From: Verrucomicrobiota bacterium JB023
Lineage (GTDB): Bacteria; Verrucomicrobiota; Verrucomicrobiia; Verrucomicrobiales; Akkermansiaceae
NCBI GenBank assembly: GCA_030673895.1
Contig: JAUTCR010000052.1
Coordinates: 1 to 64,000, forward strand
DNA: 64,000 nt
Direction: 5' to 3'
The position numbers and the translations under genes are program-made. The notes under the pieces were generated by a model that had not been told where the DNA came from, searched no databases, and saw only the letters and a list, made by a program, of their open reading frames with translations. Below are positions 6,814 through 60,247 of this stretch, in pieces; within the stretch, counting starts at the first letter, position 1; the number at the start of each line of letters is the position of its first letter.

Positions 6814-7395
6814 TCACTGTGGAACAGGAGGAGGATTCCGGGGTTTGCTGAAGATGGAGATGATTCCCCAGACCATGGTGATGAATCCGATGATGCCCAG
6901 AAGGAACGCTCCGCCGGCACTCCCCAGGAGCTTGGTGAAGATCGCGCCGAAGGTGCCGTGGGTCACCGAGATGATGCGGGGTTCGCCCGGCGGGCCCTTA
7001 ACCTGCAAGGTGTAGGTGCCGGCCTCCGGAGTGTTGAAGGTGCCGACTGCCGAGCGGCGGGTGCTGCCGAAATGGCTCGTGGTATTCATCCCCGAGGGCT
7101 CCAGGGGAGCGAGAGGTTCGCCTCGGATGGTAGTCATCTCAAAGGAGAAGCCGCCGGGGAGGGCGGGTGGATTCTCGATGAAGGAGCTTGCATAATAAGT
7201 CTCATAGTCGTGCCAGACGGTGATTTTGGTCGCTTCTTTAACCGTAAAATCCGCCGAGCCGGGCGCCTCGAAGGCGACGAGCGACTTGGTGTTCTTAACG
7301 GTGGAGCTGAAGGCGCTCACCAAGAGGTAAACGGCGATGGCCCAGCAGGCGACAGTGGCTCCGAAGAGGAGCGAGAGTTTCAGTGGCTTAGTCAT
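6814..7395 (-). CDS. Membrane protein of unknown function, two TM segments
   Basis: 193-residue protein with a TM helix near residues 9-29, a soluble roughly 115-residue middle domain probably outside the cytoplasm, and a second TM helix (LLGIIGFITMVWGII) just before a short proline-rich tail. The middle looks like a beta-sandwich (AGTYTLQVKGPPGEP) but I do not recognise a family. It starts 18 nt after the sppA stop and is probably co-transcribed with it, so a link to membrane protein turnover is possible but unproven. Confidence 0.75.
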   Translation of the reverse strand: MTKPLKLSLLFGATVACWAIAVYLLVSAFSSTVKNTKSLVAFEAPGSADFTVKEATKITVWHDYETYYASSFIENPPALPGGFSFEMTTIRGEPLAPLEPSGMNTTSHFGSTRRSAVGTFNTPEAGTYTLQVKGPPGEPRIISVTHGTFGAIFTKLLGSAGGAFLLGIIGFITMVWGIISIFSKPRNPPPVPQ

Positions 7396-7413
7396 TGGAG
7401 CCCTCGGCGATTG

Positions 7414-9177
7414 TCAGTAGGTGGGGATGGGTGGGGCGATGAGCTGGACGCGTTCCGCCTCAAAGCTGCGCAGGGTGGCGAGCGCTTCCCGGATCTGGCG
7501 AGCCTTGGTCTCGGGGAGGCTTTGGAGCAGAGGATTGATAGTGAGCAAGCTCTCGATGTTCAGGCTGTCGGTGCGGGTCTGCATAGAAATGAATTCATCA
7601 CTGCTCTTCTCCGGCTCTTGGTTGAAGAGGTTATCCAGCGGGCTGGTGGGCTCGGGGAGCAGAATCGCTCTGGGAGAGTCGATATCACTCAGCTCGACTG
7701 CCCGGGCAATCGCTTCATTCAGGCCGCCCAACTCGTCGACCAATCCCAAGCGGAGGGCGTCGCTGCCAGTATAGACCCGTCCTCCGGCCAGCTTCTCGAG
7801 GTCTTTGGCGAGCTTATGGCCGCGGCCGTCCAGGATGCGCTGCTTGAAGGTGCGGTAAACATCCAGCATGGAATTCCGGATGATGGTGCGCTCCTGCTTG
7901 GTGAAGGGGCGGGTGGAATTGTAGATGTCCGCATGGTCGCCACGCTTCATCTCGTGAGTGGTGATGCCCAATTTCTCAAGCGCTCCGCCCATGGCGAGCT
8001 TCATTCCCACCACGCCGATGGAGCCGGTGATGGTGGCCGGCTCGGCGAAAATCTCATCGGCTGCGCTGGAGACGTAGTATCCACCGCTGGCGGCGACTGC
8101 GCCCATGGAGACGAGGAAGGGGCGCCCGGTGCGGGAGAATTCCTCGGTGGCTTCCCAGAGAATCTCGGAGGCCAACGCCGAGCCGCCGGGCGAGTTCACG
8201 CGCAGGACCAAGGCGCGGCACATTTCATCATCAGTCGCGGCGAGGATCTCATCGCGCACGGGGCTGATGCTCTCGAAGGTGATGCCGGCATCAAGCGCGA
8301 CCACGGCGACGTATTCCTCCTCGGGAGAACTCTTTTCCCCAGAGGAGAACATCAGCTTCATGAGGTCGAGCATGCTGTCGATCTCCGGCTCACTACTCTC
8401 GCCCCGCGCGTAGTCAGGCTTGAATTCCAGATTGCTGTAGAGGTCCTGCAGCTCGTTGACGAAGTCGGTGCGGTATTGCAGCCGGTCGACGAGGTTCTTG
8501 GCTTTCGCTTCTTCCGCCGTCACGAAGCCTTGGTCGACAAGGCTTGCAAGTGAATCCCGGGTAATGCCCCGACCAACGGCGATTTCCGTGAGCAGGGTGT
8601 TGTGAATGGAGTCAAAGAGTTCCTGCGATTGCTTCTCAGCGGCCTTCGAGGGGCCGGTGCGGTAGAAGTTTTCGCCCGCGGACTTGAAGTCACCGATGTG
8701 GACGACGTCGGCGACGATTCCGGCCTTGTCGAGAAGGCCCTTGAAATACATCGACTCTGCGAAAAGACCGGAGAGGGAGACGTCGCCTTCCGGGTTCAGG
8801 GTCAAATGGGTCGCGGCCGAGCCAAGCAGCGCCGTTTGTGAGTTGAGAGAATCGGTGTAGAGCCAGACCTCCTTGCCTGCCTCACGAATGTCGAGCAGAC
8901 CCCGGCGAATTTCCTCAAGTTGAGCGAGAGAGATGGCCGCTTGGTCGACCTCCAGGACGACGGCGGGGATCTCCTCATCAGCGGCTGCCTTTTCCAATGA
9001 GCGGACGACATCGAAGTGGGTCAGCGGGCGATGGGGGTTGGTATCGAATTCGAAGAGACCCGACGGGACGTTGCCGCTCTCGGTGAGCATGCCTGCGAGA
9101 TCGTAGACGGGGATGACAGGTTCGGCCAAAAGAGTCCCCGCAGCCATGGCCACGGAAAGGCAGGTCATTTTCATCAT
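7414..9177 (-). CDS. sppA: Signal peptide peptidase SppA, long (67K-type) form
   Basis: 587-residue serine protease that degrades cleaved signal peptides in the membrane (family S49). It has the two-repeat architecture of the long form. The N-terminal repeat carries the catalytic Lys165 in GDFKSAGE, and the C-terminal repeat carries the nucleophile Ser364 in AASGGYY. Their separation of 199 residues is close to the E. coli Lys209/Ser409 pair. An N-terminal hydrophobic segment anchors or exports it. VNSPGGSALASE and GSIGVVG are further family signatures. It is preceded by transketolase with a clear terminator in between, and a membrane protein gene follows after 18 nt. Confidence 0.96.
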   Translation of the reverse strand: MMKMTCLSVAMAAGTLLAEPVIPVYDLAGMLTESGNVPSGLFEFDTNPHRPLTHFDVVRSLEKAAADEEIPAVVLEVDQAAISLAQLEEIRRGLLDIREAGKEVWLYTDSLNSQTALLGSAATHLTLNPEGDVSLSGLFAESMYFKGLLDKAGIVADVVHIGDFKSAGENFYRTGPSKAAEKQSQELFDSIHNTLLTEIAVGRGITRDSLASLVDQGFVTAEEAKAKNLVDRLQYRTDFVNELQDLYSNLEFKPDYARGESSEPEIDSMLDLMKLMFSSGEKSSPEEEYVAVVALDAGITFESISPVRDEILAATDDEMCRALVLRVNSPGGSALASEILWEATEEFSRTGRPFLVSMGAVAASGGYYVSSAADEIFAEPATITGSIGVVGMKLAMGGALEKLGITTHEMKRGDHADIYNSTRPFTKQERTIIRNSMLDVYRTFKQRILDGRGHKLAKDLEKLAGGRVYTGSDALRLGLVDELGGLNEAIARAVELSDIDSPRAILLPEPTSPLDNLFNQEPEKSSDEFISMQTRTDSLNIESLLTINPLLQSLPETKARQIREALATLRSFEAERVQLIAPPIPTY

Positions 9178-57236: not shown

Positions 57237-58571
57237 TCAGCTCTGACGCAACCAGCTGAAGAAGGCCTCCTCTCCGGGGGTCATCGGGATGGAAGCCTTC
57301 GGCTCATCCGCCAGGCAGGCCAAGCGCTCCGGGATCTCGACAGCACCTTTTCCAAGCTCTTCCTCCATCGTGGGGAGAAACTTGGAGGGATGGGCGGTGG
57401 AGAGGATGATGCGGTGTCCTTGACTGACTGTGCCCTTGGCGGCCAGATAGCCGACTGCGGTGTGCGGGCACATCGCGTAGCGGAATTCGTCCCAGACCTC
57501 GCGGATGGCTTCACGGGTTTGTTCGTCGGTGAAGGATGCCCCACGGATCGAGGCCCGCATCGCGGTGAGGGCGTCCGCGTCGCCTAGCTGCTCGGCTTCG
57601 GGTTTGTCGGGGCGGGCAAAGAGATCGACCATGCGGGCGAAGTTCGAAGGCGCGCCCACGTCCATGGCATTGGAAATCGTCGCGACGGAAGGGCGGGGAT
57701 CATACTGGCCATTTAGTAGATAATTGGGGACGACATCATTGACATTTGTGGCGGCGACAAAGCCAGCGACCGGGAGGCCCATCCGGTGGGCCAGGAGCCC
57801 GGCAGTGAGGTTGCCGAAATTACCTGATGGAACGATGAAGGTGGCCTCGCTGTCTTCGGGCAGTTGGCGGGCAGCATCGAAGTAGTAGAAAGATTGCGGG
57901 ATCAGACGAGAGATGTTGATCGAGTTCGCACTAGTGAGATTGAGTTTCTCGGAGAGTTCCCGGTCGGCGAAGGCCGCCTTCACGAGACGCTGGCAGTCAT
58001 CGAAGGTGCCGTCCACTTCGAGCGCGGTGATGTTGCCGCCCAGGGTGGTGAGCTGCTTCTCCTGCAAGCCGGAGACCTTGCCGGAAGGGTAGAGGATGAT
58101 CACCCGGGTGCCGGGCACGTTGTGGAAGGCGCTCGCTACGGCGCCTCCCGTATCTCCCGAGGTCGCGACCAGCACGGTGAGTTCGCGCCCGTCGTCCTTG
58201 GTCAGGTGGCCCATCAGACGGGCCATGAAGCGGGCGCCGAAGTCCTTGAAGGCGAGCGTAGGACCATGGAATAGCTCTAGCACCGAGAGGTCGTTGCCGA
58301 GGGAATGCAGGGGAGCGGGAAAATTGATGGCCCCGGCTACGAGCGAGCGAAGTTCATCCTCCGGGATCGCTCCCTGAAAGAGGTGGCTGGTTACCCGGTA
58401 GCCAAGTTCCGCGAGGGATATCTCCCTCCAATCATCCCAGAAGGATGCCGGTAAGGGCTGGATCTCCTCCGGCATGTAGAGGCCCCGGTCCGAAGGCAAG
58501 GAGCGAAGAACAGCCTCCTTGAGGGGCTGGATATTGCGGCGATTGTTGGTGGAGTAGTATTGGGTTGCCAT
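57237..58571 (-). CDS. thrC: Threonine synthase
   Basis: 444 residues. PLP enzyme converting O-phosphohomoserine to threonine. Schiff-base Lys109 lies in TLAFKDFGARF; phosphate- and PLP-binding segments are TSGDTGGAVASAF and SGNFGNLTAG. It matches the long (E. coli-type) class with N-terminal YYSTNNRR and GLYMPE. It lies downstream of thrB on the same strand, but with a gene on the opposite strand in between (58744-59232). Confidence 0.97.
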   Translation of the reverse strand: MATQYYSTNNRRNIQPLKEAVLRSLPSDRGLYMPEEIQPLPASFWDDWREISLAELGYRVTSHLFQGAIPEDELRSLVAGAINFPAPLHSLGNDLSVLELFHGPTLAFKDFGARFMARLMGHLTKDDGRELTVLVATSGDTGGAVASAFHNVPGTRVIILYPSGKVSGLQEKQLTTLGGNITALEVDGTFDDCQRLVKAAFADRELSEKLNLTSANSINISRLIPQSFYYFDAARQLPEDSEATFIVPSGNFGNLTAGLLAHRMGLPVAGFVAATNVNDVVPNYLLNGQYDPRPSVATISNAMDVGAPSNFARMVDLFARPDKPEAEQLGDADALTAMRASIRGASFTDEQTREAIREVWDEFRYAMCPHTAVGYLAAKGTVSQGHRIILSTAHPSKFLPTMEEELGKGAVEIPERLACLADEPKASIPMTPGEEAFFSWLRQS

Positions 58572-58743
58572 CTCGCTGTGGCCGTCAAGCTAACGGTTTT
58601 TTCGGCGAAAACGGAAGCCTCTTTCGGGGCCTGGCGGCGAGCTCGCAGGGGTCAAGGTATTCTCCATTTGCACGATTACGAGGCTGGGGCACCTTGGGTG
58701 GTCGGTCTTTCGAGGCCGGCAGATGAACCCAAATTACTGAATT

Positions 58744-59232
58744 ATGCCCCAGACCCCCCAAACCAAACTTGATACCGGGGATCCGTTTCCCAAAATGGAT
58801 CTCAAGCTAACAACCGGAGAGTCCCTTCAATTGCCCAAGGGCAACTGGACCTTCTTCCTTCTCTATCGCGGCAACTGGTGACCTTTCTGTCGTCAGCAGT
58901 TGGCTGACTATCAGGAACGCCTCGCGGAATTTCGTGAGAAAGGCGTCGATATCGTCGCGGCCTCCGTGGAGACCGAGGCTGAAGCGAAGGAGACCGTTGA
59001 AAAACTGGGCCTCGACTTTCCTGTGGCCTATGGAATTGACCCCGTGACCTTTGCGAAAACGACCGGAGCTTATTATGCGAAGGACGAAGACGGCGATTTC
59101 TTGCATGCCACCGGCTTCATGTTGAAGCCGGACAATACCATCGATGTGGCTGTCTTCAGCTCTGGTGCCATCGGCCGCCTGGAGGTGGGCGATGCCCTTC
59201 AGTTCGTCGAATTCCGGCTGAAGAACGACTAA
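58744..59232 (+). CDS. Putative selenoprotein: peroxiredoxin-like (AhpC/TSA family) with in-frame TGA read as Sec46
   Basis: A 162-residue thioredoxin-fold protein if the in-frame TGA at 58879-58881 is read as selenocysteine (residue 46, motif W-U-P-F-C, Cys49). ATG 58744 is bounded by a stop two codons upstream. The TGA falls exactly where AhpC/TSA-like proteins have the first Cys of CxxC (usual context RGxWCPyC). Coding continues cleanly for 116 codons after it, with typical Prx-like features: YQERLAEFREKGVDIVAAS, FPVAYGIDP, TGFMLKPD. A bSECIS-like hairpin follows (58884-58917). Without Sec it would be a 45-residue fragment. Likely a thiol/selenol peroxidase or reductase. The alternative, a TGT/TGC to TGA nonsense mutation, cannot be excluded from one genome, but the hairpin argues against it. 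Confidence 0.8.
58884..58917 (+). promoter_or_regulatory. Candidate bacterial SECIS element
   Basis: Two stacked stems start 2 nt after the TGA. The lower one is TTTCTG (58884-58889) with CAGGAA (58912-58917), one U-G. A small internal loop follows, then the upper GTCAGC (58892-58897) with GCTGAC (58903-58908). The apical loop AGTTG (58898-58902) has G at its second position, about 18 nt from the UGA. This fits the published bSECIS rule: a loop of 3-14 nt, G in the first two positions, 16-37 nt from UGA. Confidence 0.75.
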
Positions 59233-59251
59233 TCCCCAGCCTTTTTCCGGA

Positions 59252-59277
59252 GAGGCCCCGTCGCCAGGCGGGGCCTC
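59252..59277. terminator. G+C-rich hairpin between convergent selenoprotein and thrB genes
   Basis: GAGGCCCCG (59252-59260) pairs with CGGGGCCTC (59269-59277), 9 bp, loop 8 nt. No T run follows on either strand. It sits in the 49-nt space between the two convergent genes. Confidence 0.5.
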
Positions 59278-59281
59278 GGCG

Positions 59282-60247
59282 TCACGCGATGACCGGAACC
59301 TTGTCCACCACCCGGACGCCCTGACGGTTGATCGGGGAGATGTGCATCTGGTTATTGAGGGGGATTGCCGAGAATACCTTGGCGATCGCCTCGCCGACTT
59401 GGTGGGCGTTCTCTTCTCCCTCACAGAGGGCGAAGACGCTGGGACCCGCTCCAGAGATGGAGAAGCCCAGCGCTCCTGCCGCCATCGCCGCGCGCTTGGC
59501 TTTGTAGAAATCCGGGATCAGCTTTTGGCGACGGGGCTCGGCGATGACGTCGTGAATCGAGCGCCCGATCATTGCGTAGTCGGACTGAATGAGTCCGCAG
59601 AGGAGTCCGCCGAGATTACCAATCTGTTGAGTGGCGTTGCGGAGCGGGATATCCTTTGCGAGGATCTCGCGGGCCACCCGGGTGAGGATCTCGATATCCG
59701 GGTGGACGACGGCGGCCCAGAGATTGTCGGGGACAGGAAGTTCCGCGACGTCCAGCTCCTCATTGTCCCGGATGAAGATGATGCCGCCGAGCAGGCAGGG
59801 ACCGACATTGTCCGCATGCCAGGCCCCGTCGGCCGAGGCCTCCCCTTGCATGGCGAAGGGGAGGAGCTGCTTCTTGGAAAGTGGCTCACCGATCAGCTTG
59901 TTGACCGCGTAGGCTCCCGCGACGGCGGATGCTGCCGAAGAGCCCAGACCGGACCCGAAAGGCATGCGCTTGTGAATCTCCATCTCAATGCCGCGGTCGG
60001 TCATGCCAAGGTGGTGCAGGAGGTCGAGCGCGGAGACGCCGGCTGTATTCTTGGACGGATCCGTCGGGAGCTTGCCATCATCACCAGTGATGGCGGTGAT
60101 GCGCAGGCCGGGCTTGTCCGAGTGGCGGACGACGACGAAATCTCCAGGCTCGTTAATGGCAAAACCGAGGACGTCGTAGCCACAGGCCACATTGGCGACG
60201 GTGGCTGGAGCGAAGACGGTGACTTGCTGCTGTTCAGCGGGCGACAT
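59282..60247 (-). CDS. thrB: Homoserine kinase
   Basis: 321-residue GHMP kinase. ATP-dependent phosphorylation of homoserine to O-phosphohomoserine for threonine synthesis. The N-terminal VFAPATVANVACGYD and the ATP-binding loop PFGSGLGSSAAS (96-106) are typical, and the C-terminal SISGAGPSVFALCEG is the GHMP motif 3. It would normally feed straight into thrC, but here the selenoprotein gene lies between them on the other strand. Confidence 0.97.
   Translation of the reverse strand: MSPAEQQQVTVFAPATVANVACGYDVLGFAINEPGDFVVVRHSDKPGLRITAITGDDGKLPTDPSKNTAGVSALDLLHHLGMTDRGIEMEIHKRMPFGSGLGSSAASAVAGAYAVNKLIGEPLSKKQLLPFAMQGEASADGAWHADNVGPCLLGGIIFIRDNEELDVAELPVPDNLWAAVVHPDIEILTRVAREILAKDIPLRNATQQIGNLGGLLCGLIQSDYAMIGRSIHDVIAEPRRQKLIPDFYKAKRAAMAAGALGFSISGAGPSVFALCEGEENAHQVGEAIAKVFSAIPLNNQMHISPINRQGVRVVDKVPVIA

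Follow-up and report, generated by a model that had tools for sequence, protein, structure and literature searches.

The gene at positions 58744-59232 (+ strand) of the window, by which we mean the whole 64,000-nt stretch of DNA that was analysed, very probably encodes a small peroxiredoxin (Prx)-like redox enzyme whose active site receives selenocysteine (Sec) at an internal TGA codon. The frame, open once this TGA is recoded, is conserved among relatives, the genome has the Sec machinery, and both a hairpin and a UPFC motif are present. Taken as one whole, the explanation that this is a Sec-decoding selenoprotein gene with a SECIS element, whose product is a redox enzyme of the Prx fold with a UPFC site, has in our estimate a probability of about 95%. 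The data effectively rule out a sequencing error, a pseudogene or a chance occurrence. An earlier note on this DNA had read the gene as encoding a Sec-containing oxidoreductase, and this reading is supported by the Sec genes, the recurrent TGA, the intact downstream frame and the alignment with Cys.

The recoded frame and its homologues

The coding sequence comprises 162 residues from ATG 58744 to a TAA stop (59230-59232), and its sole interruption is TGA 58879-58881 within RGNW-U-PFC; coordinates, frame and motif are as the earlier note gave them. With the TGA translated as Sec, the product reads MPQTPQTKLDTGDPFPKMDLKLTTGESLQLPKGNWTFFLLYRGNW-U-PFCRQQLADYQ...(162 aa). Truncation by normal gene finders had also been anticipated, and the list of ORFs made without recoding indeed contains just a 110-aa ORF with a TTG start (58900-59232). 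The PF00578 (AhpC-TSA) domain spans residues 12-133, reaching to either side of the TGA, with 63.8 bits relative to a cut-off of 26 (E = 1.8e-17). No signal or membrane anchor was apparent in the 162-aa protein, no clear Shine-Dalgarno sequence was found before ATG 58744, and Rfam returned no match at gathering scores across the whole window. Single-sequence structure prediction of the protein gave a mean pLDDT of 42.6, too low for the model to be of use. Scanning the window for other ORFs joined through a TGA yielded five candidates, all unconvincing; the scan omitted the selenoprotein gene itself because a 205-aa minus-strand ORF (58807-59424) overlaps it.

Comparison with a copy from the same genus shows purifying selection on the frame both before and after the TGA: NG86 estimates were dN 0.32 and dS 1.10 before this codon and dN 0.23 and dS 1.29 after it. 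The differences between the two copies fall on codon positions 1/2/3 of the + strand in the proportions 39/28/80. This pattern is expected of a + strand coding frame and argues against the overlapping minus-strand ORF as a gene.

The TGA codon, which would encode U46 of the UPFC motif, is found at one alignment column in 11 homologues, which represent 10 genomes of two phyla and make up every row of the Sec group, while four Cys homologues present TGT or TGC at this column. The alignment of the TGA with the Cys of non-Sec homologues, put forward earlier as a check, was therefore borne out. In the assembly from which the window comes (4.03 Mb in 77 contigs, 97.5% complete), another contig carries a paralogue that is 57% identical and has TGA at the same codon. 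The assembly also contains two distant relatives without a stop that present the motif WCPYC. A search of 116 relatives at 1e-20 gave matches in four genomes, the own genome included, and every copy carried the TGA. Scanning named genomes added one more TGA copy in a 'Deltaproteobacteria' assembly (labelled Myxococcota by the tree tool), and 395 genomes from the phylum of that assembly provided five more. The Cys homologue L029, from the same class as the window gene, has TGT in place of TGA; the other aligned Cys homologues are plasmid genes of Deinococcus aetherius, Mycobacterium kansasii and Lichenihabitans. No relatives of the gene were found in the viral contigs that were searched.

When the distant Cys rows were left out, the TGA rows formed one side of a branch with a support of 99/98; the tree that included these rows was poorly resolved. 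In an unrooted tree, such a split is compatible with a single gain of the TGA form and is not proof of it. Two genomes of the same genus (G002 and G003) possess selA and no copy of the family, and the patchy spread of the TGA gene suggests loss or transfer. Two irregular homologues were also encountered. In a selA-positive genome (G760), only the last ~80 residues of one homologue are in frame, its 5' portion being either missing or shifted out of frame, and this may be a decaying copy or an assembly error. Another, on a plasmid of Deinococcus sp. QL22 (1483-1975), is annotated as two overlapping ORFs (a redoxin domain and a hypothetical protein) and is therefore possibly frameshifted.

Sec machinery and a predicted SECIS hairpin

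This genome contains all four Sec genes that the earlier note had proposed to look for: selA (441 bits, cut-off 268), selB (329 bits, cut-off 242), selD (374 bits, cut-off 125) and the tRNA-Sec gene selC (62 bits; anticodon TCA according to ARAGORN). selA exceeded its cut-off in 10/10 genomes with the TGA gene versus 0/5 genomes with a Cys homologue, relative to a background of 49/116 relatives (about 42%). The closest Sec/Cys contrast in this comparison is provided by L029 (genome G171), because the other four of the five Cys homologues are distant (HCPxC). The selD gene of this genome (contig C17, 129582-130511) presents its own in-frame TGA in SSCAG-U-ASKLS, and SelD is therefore probably a selenoprotein too; this site corresponds to the catalytic Cys position of E. 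coli SelD.

A bacterial SECIS upper stem-loop is predicted at 58892-58908 (+ strand), where 58892-58897 pairs with 58903-58908 around the loop AGUUG (58898-58902). The hairpin, UCAGC-AGUUG-GCUGA, lies 11 nt after the UGA and has a 6-bp stem, a 5-nt loop and a spacing of 16 nt between UGA and loop. A possible lower stem (58884-58917, + strand; 58884-58889 with 58912-58917) is conserved in some of the homologues but not in all. A published bSECIS model allows a loop of 3-9 nt, within whose first two positions there is a G that precedes G/U, a stem of 4-16 bp, a spacing of 16-37 nt and an MFE of at most -7.5 (PMC13188914). The hairpin of the window gene passes this model on loop, stem, spacing and energy (MFE -13.7). 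The hairpin folds in 11/11 TGA homologues, one of which (L054) narrowly misses the -7.5 limit with a 42-nt energy of -7.1. The core UCAGC-AGNUN-GCUGA is shared by 11/11 TGA genes, including L058, which encodes different residues there (QQVAE), and the hairpin is absent from the Cys homologue L029.

The four codons under the hairpin are the most codon-conserved stretch of the gene set. Across the 11 rows, the first two are always CAG, the third is TTG or TTA and the fourth is always GCT, a codon that specifies 14% of the Ala residues in the rest of these genes. Mean codon identity was 0.91 under the hairpin versus 0.40 elsewhere (permutation p = 2.5e-5), a p-value that is only a guide since the tested range (codons +5 to +8) was picked after the hairpin had been seen and the rows are related. 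An earlier synonymous test with six rows and codons +1 to +10 gave p = 0.03. Taken by itself, the hairpin is weak evidence, because the same bSECIS model also accepts 22.7% of the TGAs present in the window. Its energy alone does not reach significance in the window gene, where the fold has modest stability given its base composition (z = -1.58; synonymous recoding gives p about 0.1), and the case for a SECIS therefore rests on conservation. Little covariation was seen in the helix, which is uninformative because 5/6 pairs never vary.

These observations bear on the ways in which the TGA might be something other than a Sec codon. An in-frame TGA is by default a stop, and gene finders would give only the downstream 110 residues, as would be seen if a nonsense mutation had struck a decaying gene. 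This is very improbable: the same TGA is found in 11 genes from two phyla, purifying selection continues past it, and none of the 11 rows shows another stop or a frameshift. The earlier note had considered that close relatives might carry frame-breaking changes after the TGA, but they keep the downstream frame intact. It had also considered that re-sequencing might reveal TGT or TGC. The genome is indeed a draft in 77 contigs, but the same TGA recurs in independent genomes and in the in-genome paralogue and is therefore not a sequencing error; we consider an error of sequencing or assembly at 58879 the least probable of these alternatives. Finally, the TGA could be read as Trp or Gly under another code, or as some other amino acid by ordinary readthrough. 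Neighbouring genes, however, end and read normally under table 11, the TGA aligns with Cys and not with Trp or Gly, and the complete Sec machinery occurs together with a SECIS-like hairpin, which leaves this reading a very small probability as well.

Active site, genomic context and likely function

In the profile alignment, WUPFC matched two motifs, WCxxC in ResA and FTPVC in the peroxiredoxin 6q5v, which places Sec46 at the nucleophile position of thioredoxin (Trx) and at the Thr of the Prx TxxC. The second residue of the UxxC motif, Cys49 (58888-58890, + strand), aligns with the peroxidatic Cys of 6q5v, and Arg145 in GAIGR (59176-59178, + strand) is matched to the Gly-Arg of peroxiredoxins of the Prx6 type. 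U/C46, C49 and R145 are invariant across the 15 aligned rows (11 TGA and four Cys). The earlier note had placed the TGA at the active-site Cys; this holds for the leading residue of a Trx-like UxxC but not for the peroxidatic Cys of peroxiredoxins, whose position is taken by Cys49. The protein thus presents UxxC, as UPFC, in place of the TxxC/TxxU of peroxiredoxins. The PxxxT/SxxC peroxiredoxin motif is not matched, as Arg42 stands for Pro and Sec46 for Thr and only Cys49 is kept. Scores also remained below the NCBIfam equivalog cut-offs for AhpC (29 vs 272), PRK13189 (28 vs 211) and PrxQ (23 vs 260), and below that of the SelL-related redox protein NF040769 (27 vs 120 bits).

The window gene lies alone on the + strand between the minus-strand genes for threonine synthase (thrC) and a homoserine-kinase-like GHMP kinase (57237-60247), which suggests that it was inserted into a threonine gene cluster. 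No informative operon partners of the window copy were found. The same-genus copy (L037) is located elsewhere. The own-genome paralogue and the copy in genome G085 adjoin similar TetR regulators, with SDR, flavodoxin-fold, ABM or zinc-dehydrogenase genes. The Cys homologue of Deinococcus aetherius adjoins trxA and a flavin oxidoreductase, and the Mycobacterium kansasii gene has both a TetR regulator and a further Prx-like gene as neighbours. These neighbours in relatives point to an oxidant or electrophile response. Near the G085 copy, on the reverse strand of L040, an AhpC-TSA_2 (PF13911) ORF (7264-7644) has a frame that runs upstream through a TGA near 7672 in LRHYG-U-IFCREQL, again a UxxC, and is a candidate further selenoprotein.

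We propose that SelA and SelD would make Sec on tRNA-Sec(UCA), and that SelB with GTP and Sec-tRNA would bind the predicted hairpin 11 nt past UGA 58879 and deliver Sec to the ribosome. The product would be a single-domain, probably cytosolic, redox enzyme of the peroxiredoxin fold. Most likely, Sec46 would attack a peroxide or disulfide substrate, Cys49 may resolve the intermediate via a selenenylsulfide, and the enzyme would be re-reduced by thioredoxin or by another dithiol donor of this sort. The protein is most likely a Sec-dependent, Trx-fed reductase of peroxides or disulfides. It may be that the same selenoprotein is a thiol:disulfide oxidoreductase of the ResA/Trx type instead of a peroxidase-like enzyme, to which we give somewhat less than an even chance. 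ResA is the best-scoring solved relative, its WCxxC aligns with WUPFC, and the class has been named 'Prx-like thiol:disulfide oxidoreductase' (PMC9312934, PMC1794560). However, the Prx-type Gly-Arg and the Cys at the peroxidatic position are both invariant, and the genes that flank the relatives suggest a role in detoxification or in the response to oxidants.

Known systems and significance

Prx-like UxxC selenoproteins with PF00578, of which WP_010940744.1 is one example, have already been catalogued (PMC1088965; PMC2398784, as 'Prx-like 1'; PMC9312934), and members of the class have been described from Geobacter, Syntrophus and Desulfotalea (PMC1794560). The window gene belongs to this catalogued kind, whose stated features it matches: PF00578, a UxxC with Sec first, distant homology to Prx and a bacterial SECIS after the UGA. 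In the literature searched on this class, the lineages that carry the WUPFC group are not mentioned. Sec peroxiredoxins with TxxU, such as the Prx of Eubacterium acidaminophilum, likewise combine a Prx fold with an active-site Sec, but their Sec occupies the peroxidatic position, whereas that of the window protein lies three residues earlier and a Cys takes its place. A cd02970 peroxiredoxin-like selenoprotein (PMC13188914) shares the Prx-like fold and the Sec at the first position of the motif, but presents UxxS where the window protein presents UxxC. Thiol-disulfide oxidoreductases of the ResA/TlpA type, whose WCxxC aligns with WUPFC, are the best solved matches. ResA is membrane-anchored and extracytoplasmic; the window protein, in contrast, has no apparent signal or anchor and has Sec instead of the first Cys.

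In this sample, the WUPFC group consists of 11 Sec members from two phyla with no Cys member inside, and its SECIS stem-loop is nearly letter-identical across the phyla. It is conceivable, though we think it unlikely, that this group is a separate, uncatalogued Sec subfamily that was transferred between phyla together with its SECIS and whose active site brings together a Trx-like UxxC and the Prx-type Cys and Arg.

The analysis adds a firmly supported Sec gene and its paralogue to this lineage, in which standard annotation would leave only the last 110 residues of the protein. It also provides a clean contrast between Sec and Cys forms, in which machinery, codon and SECIS are present or absent together. 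Finally, a site that unites UxxC with the Prx-type Cys and Arg allows a simple test of what Sec contributes to a peroxiredoxin-like fold.
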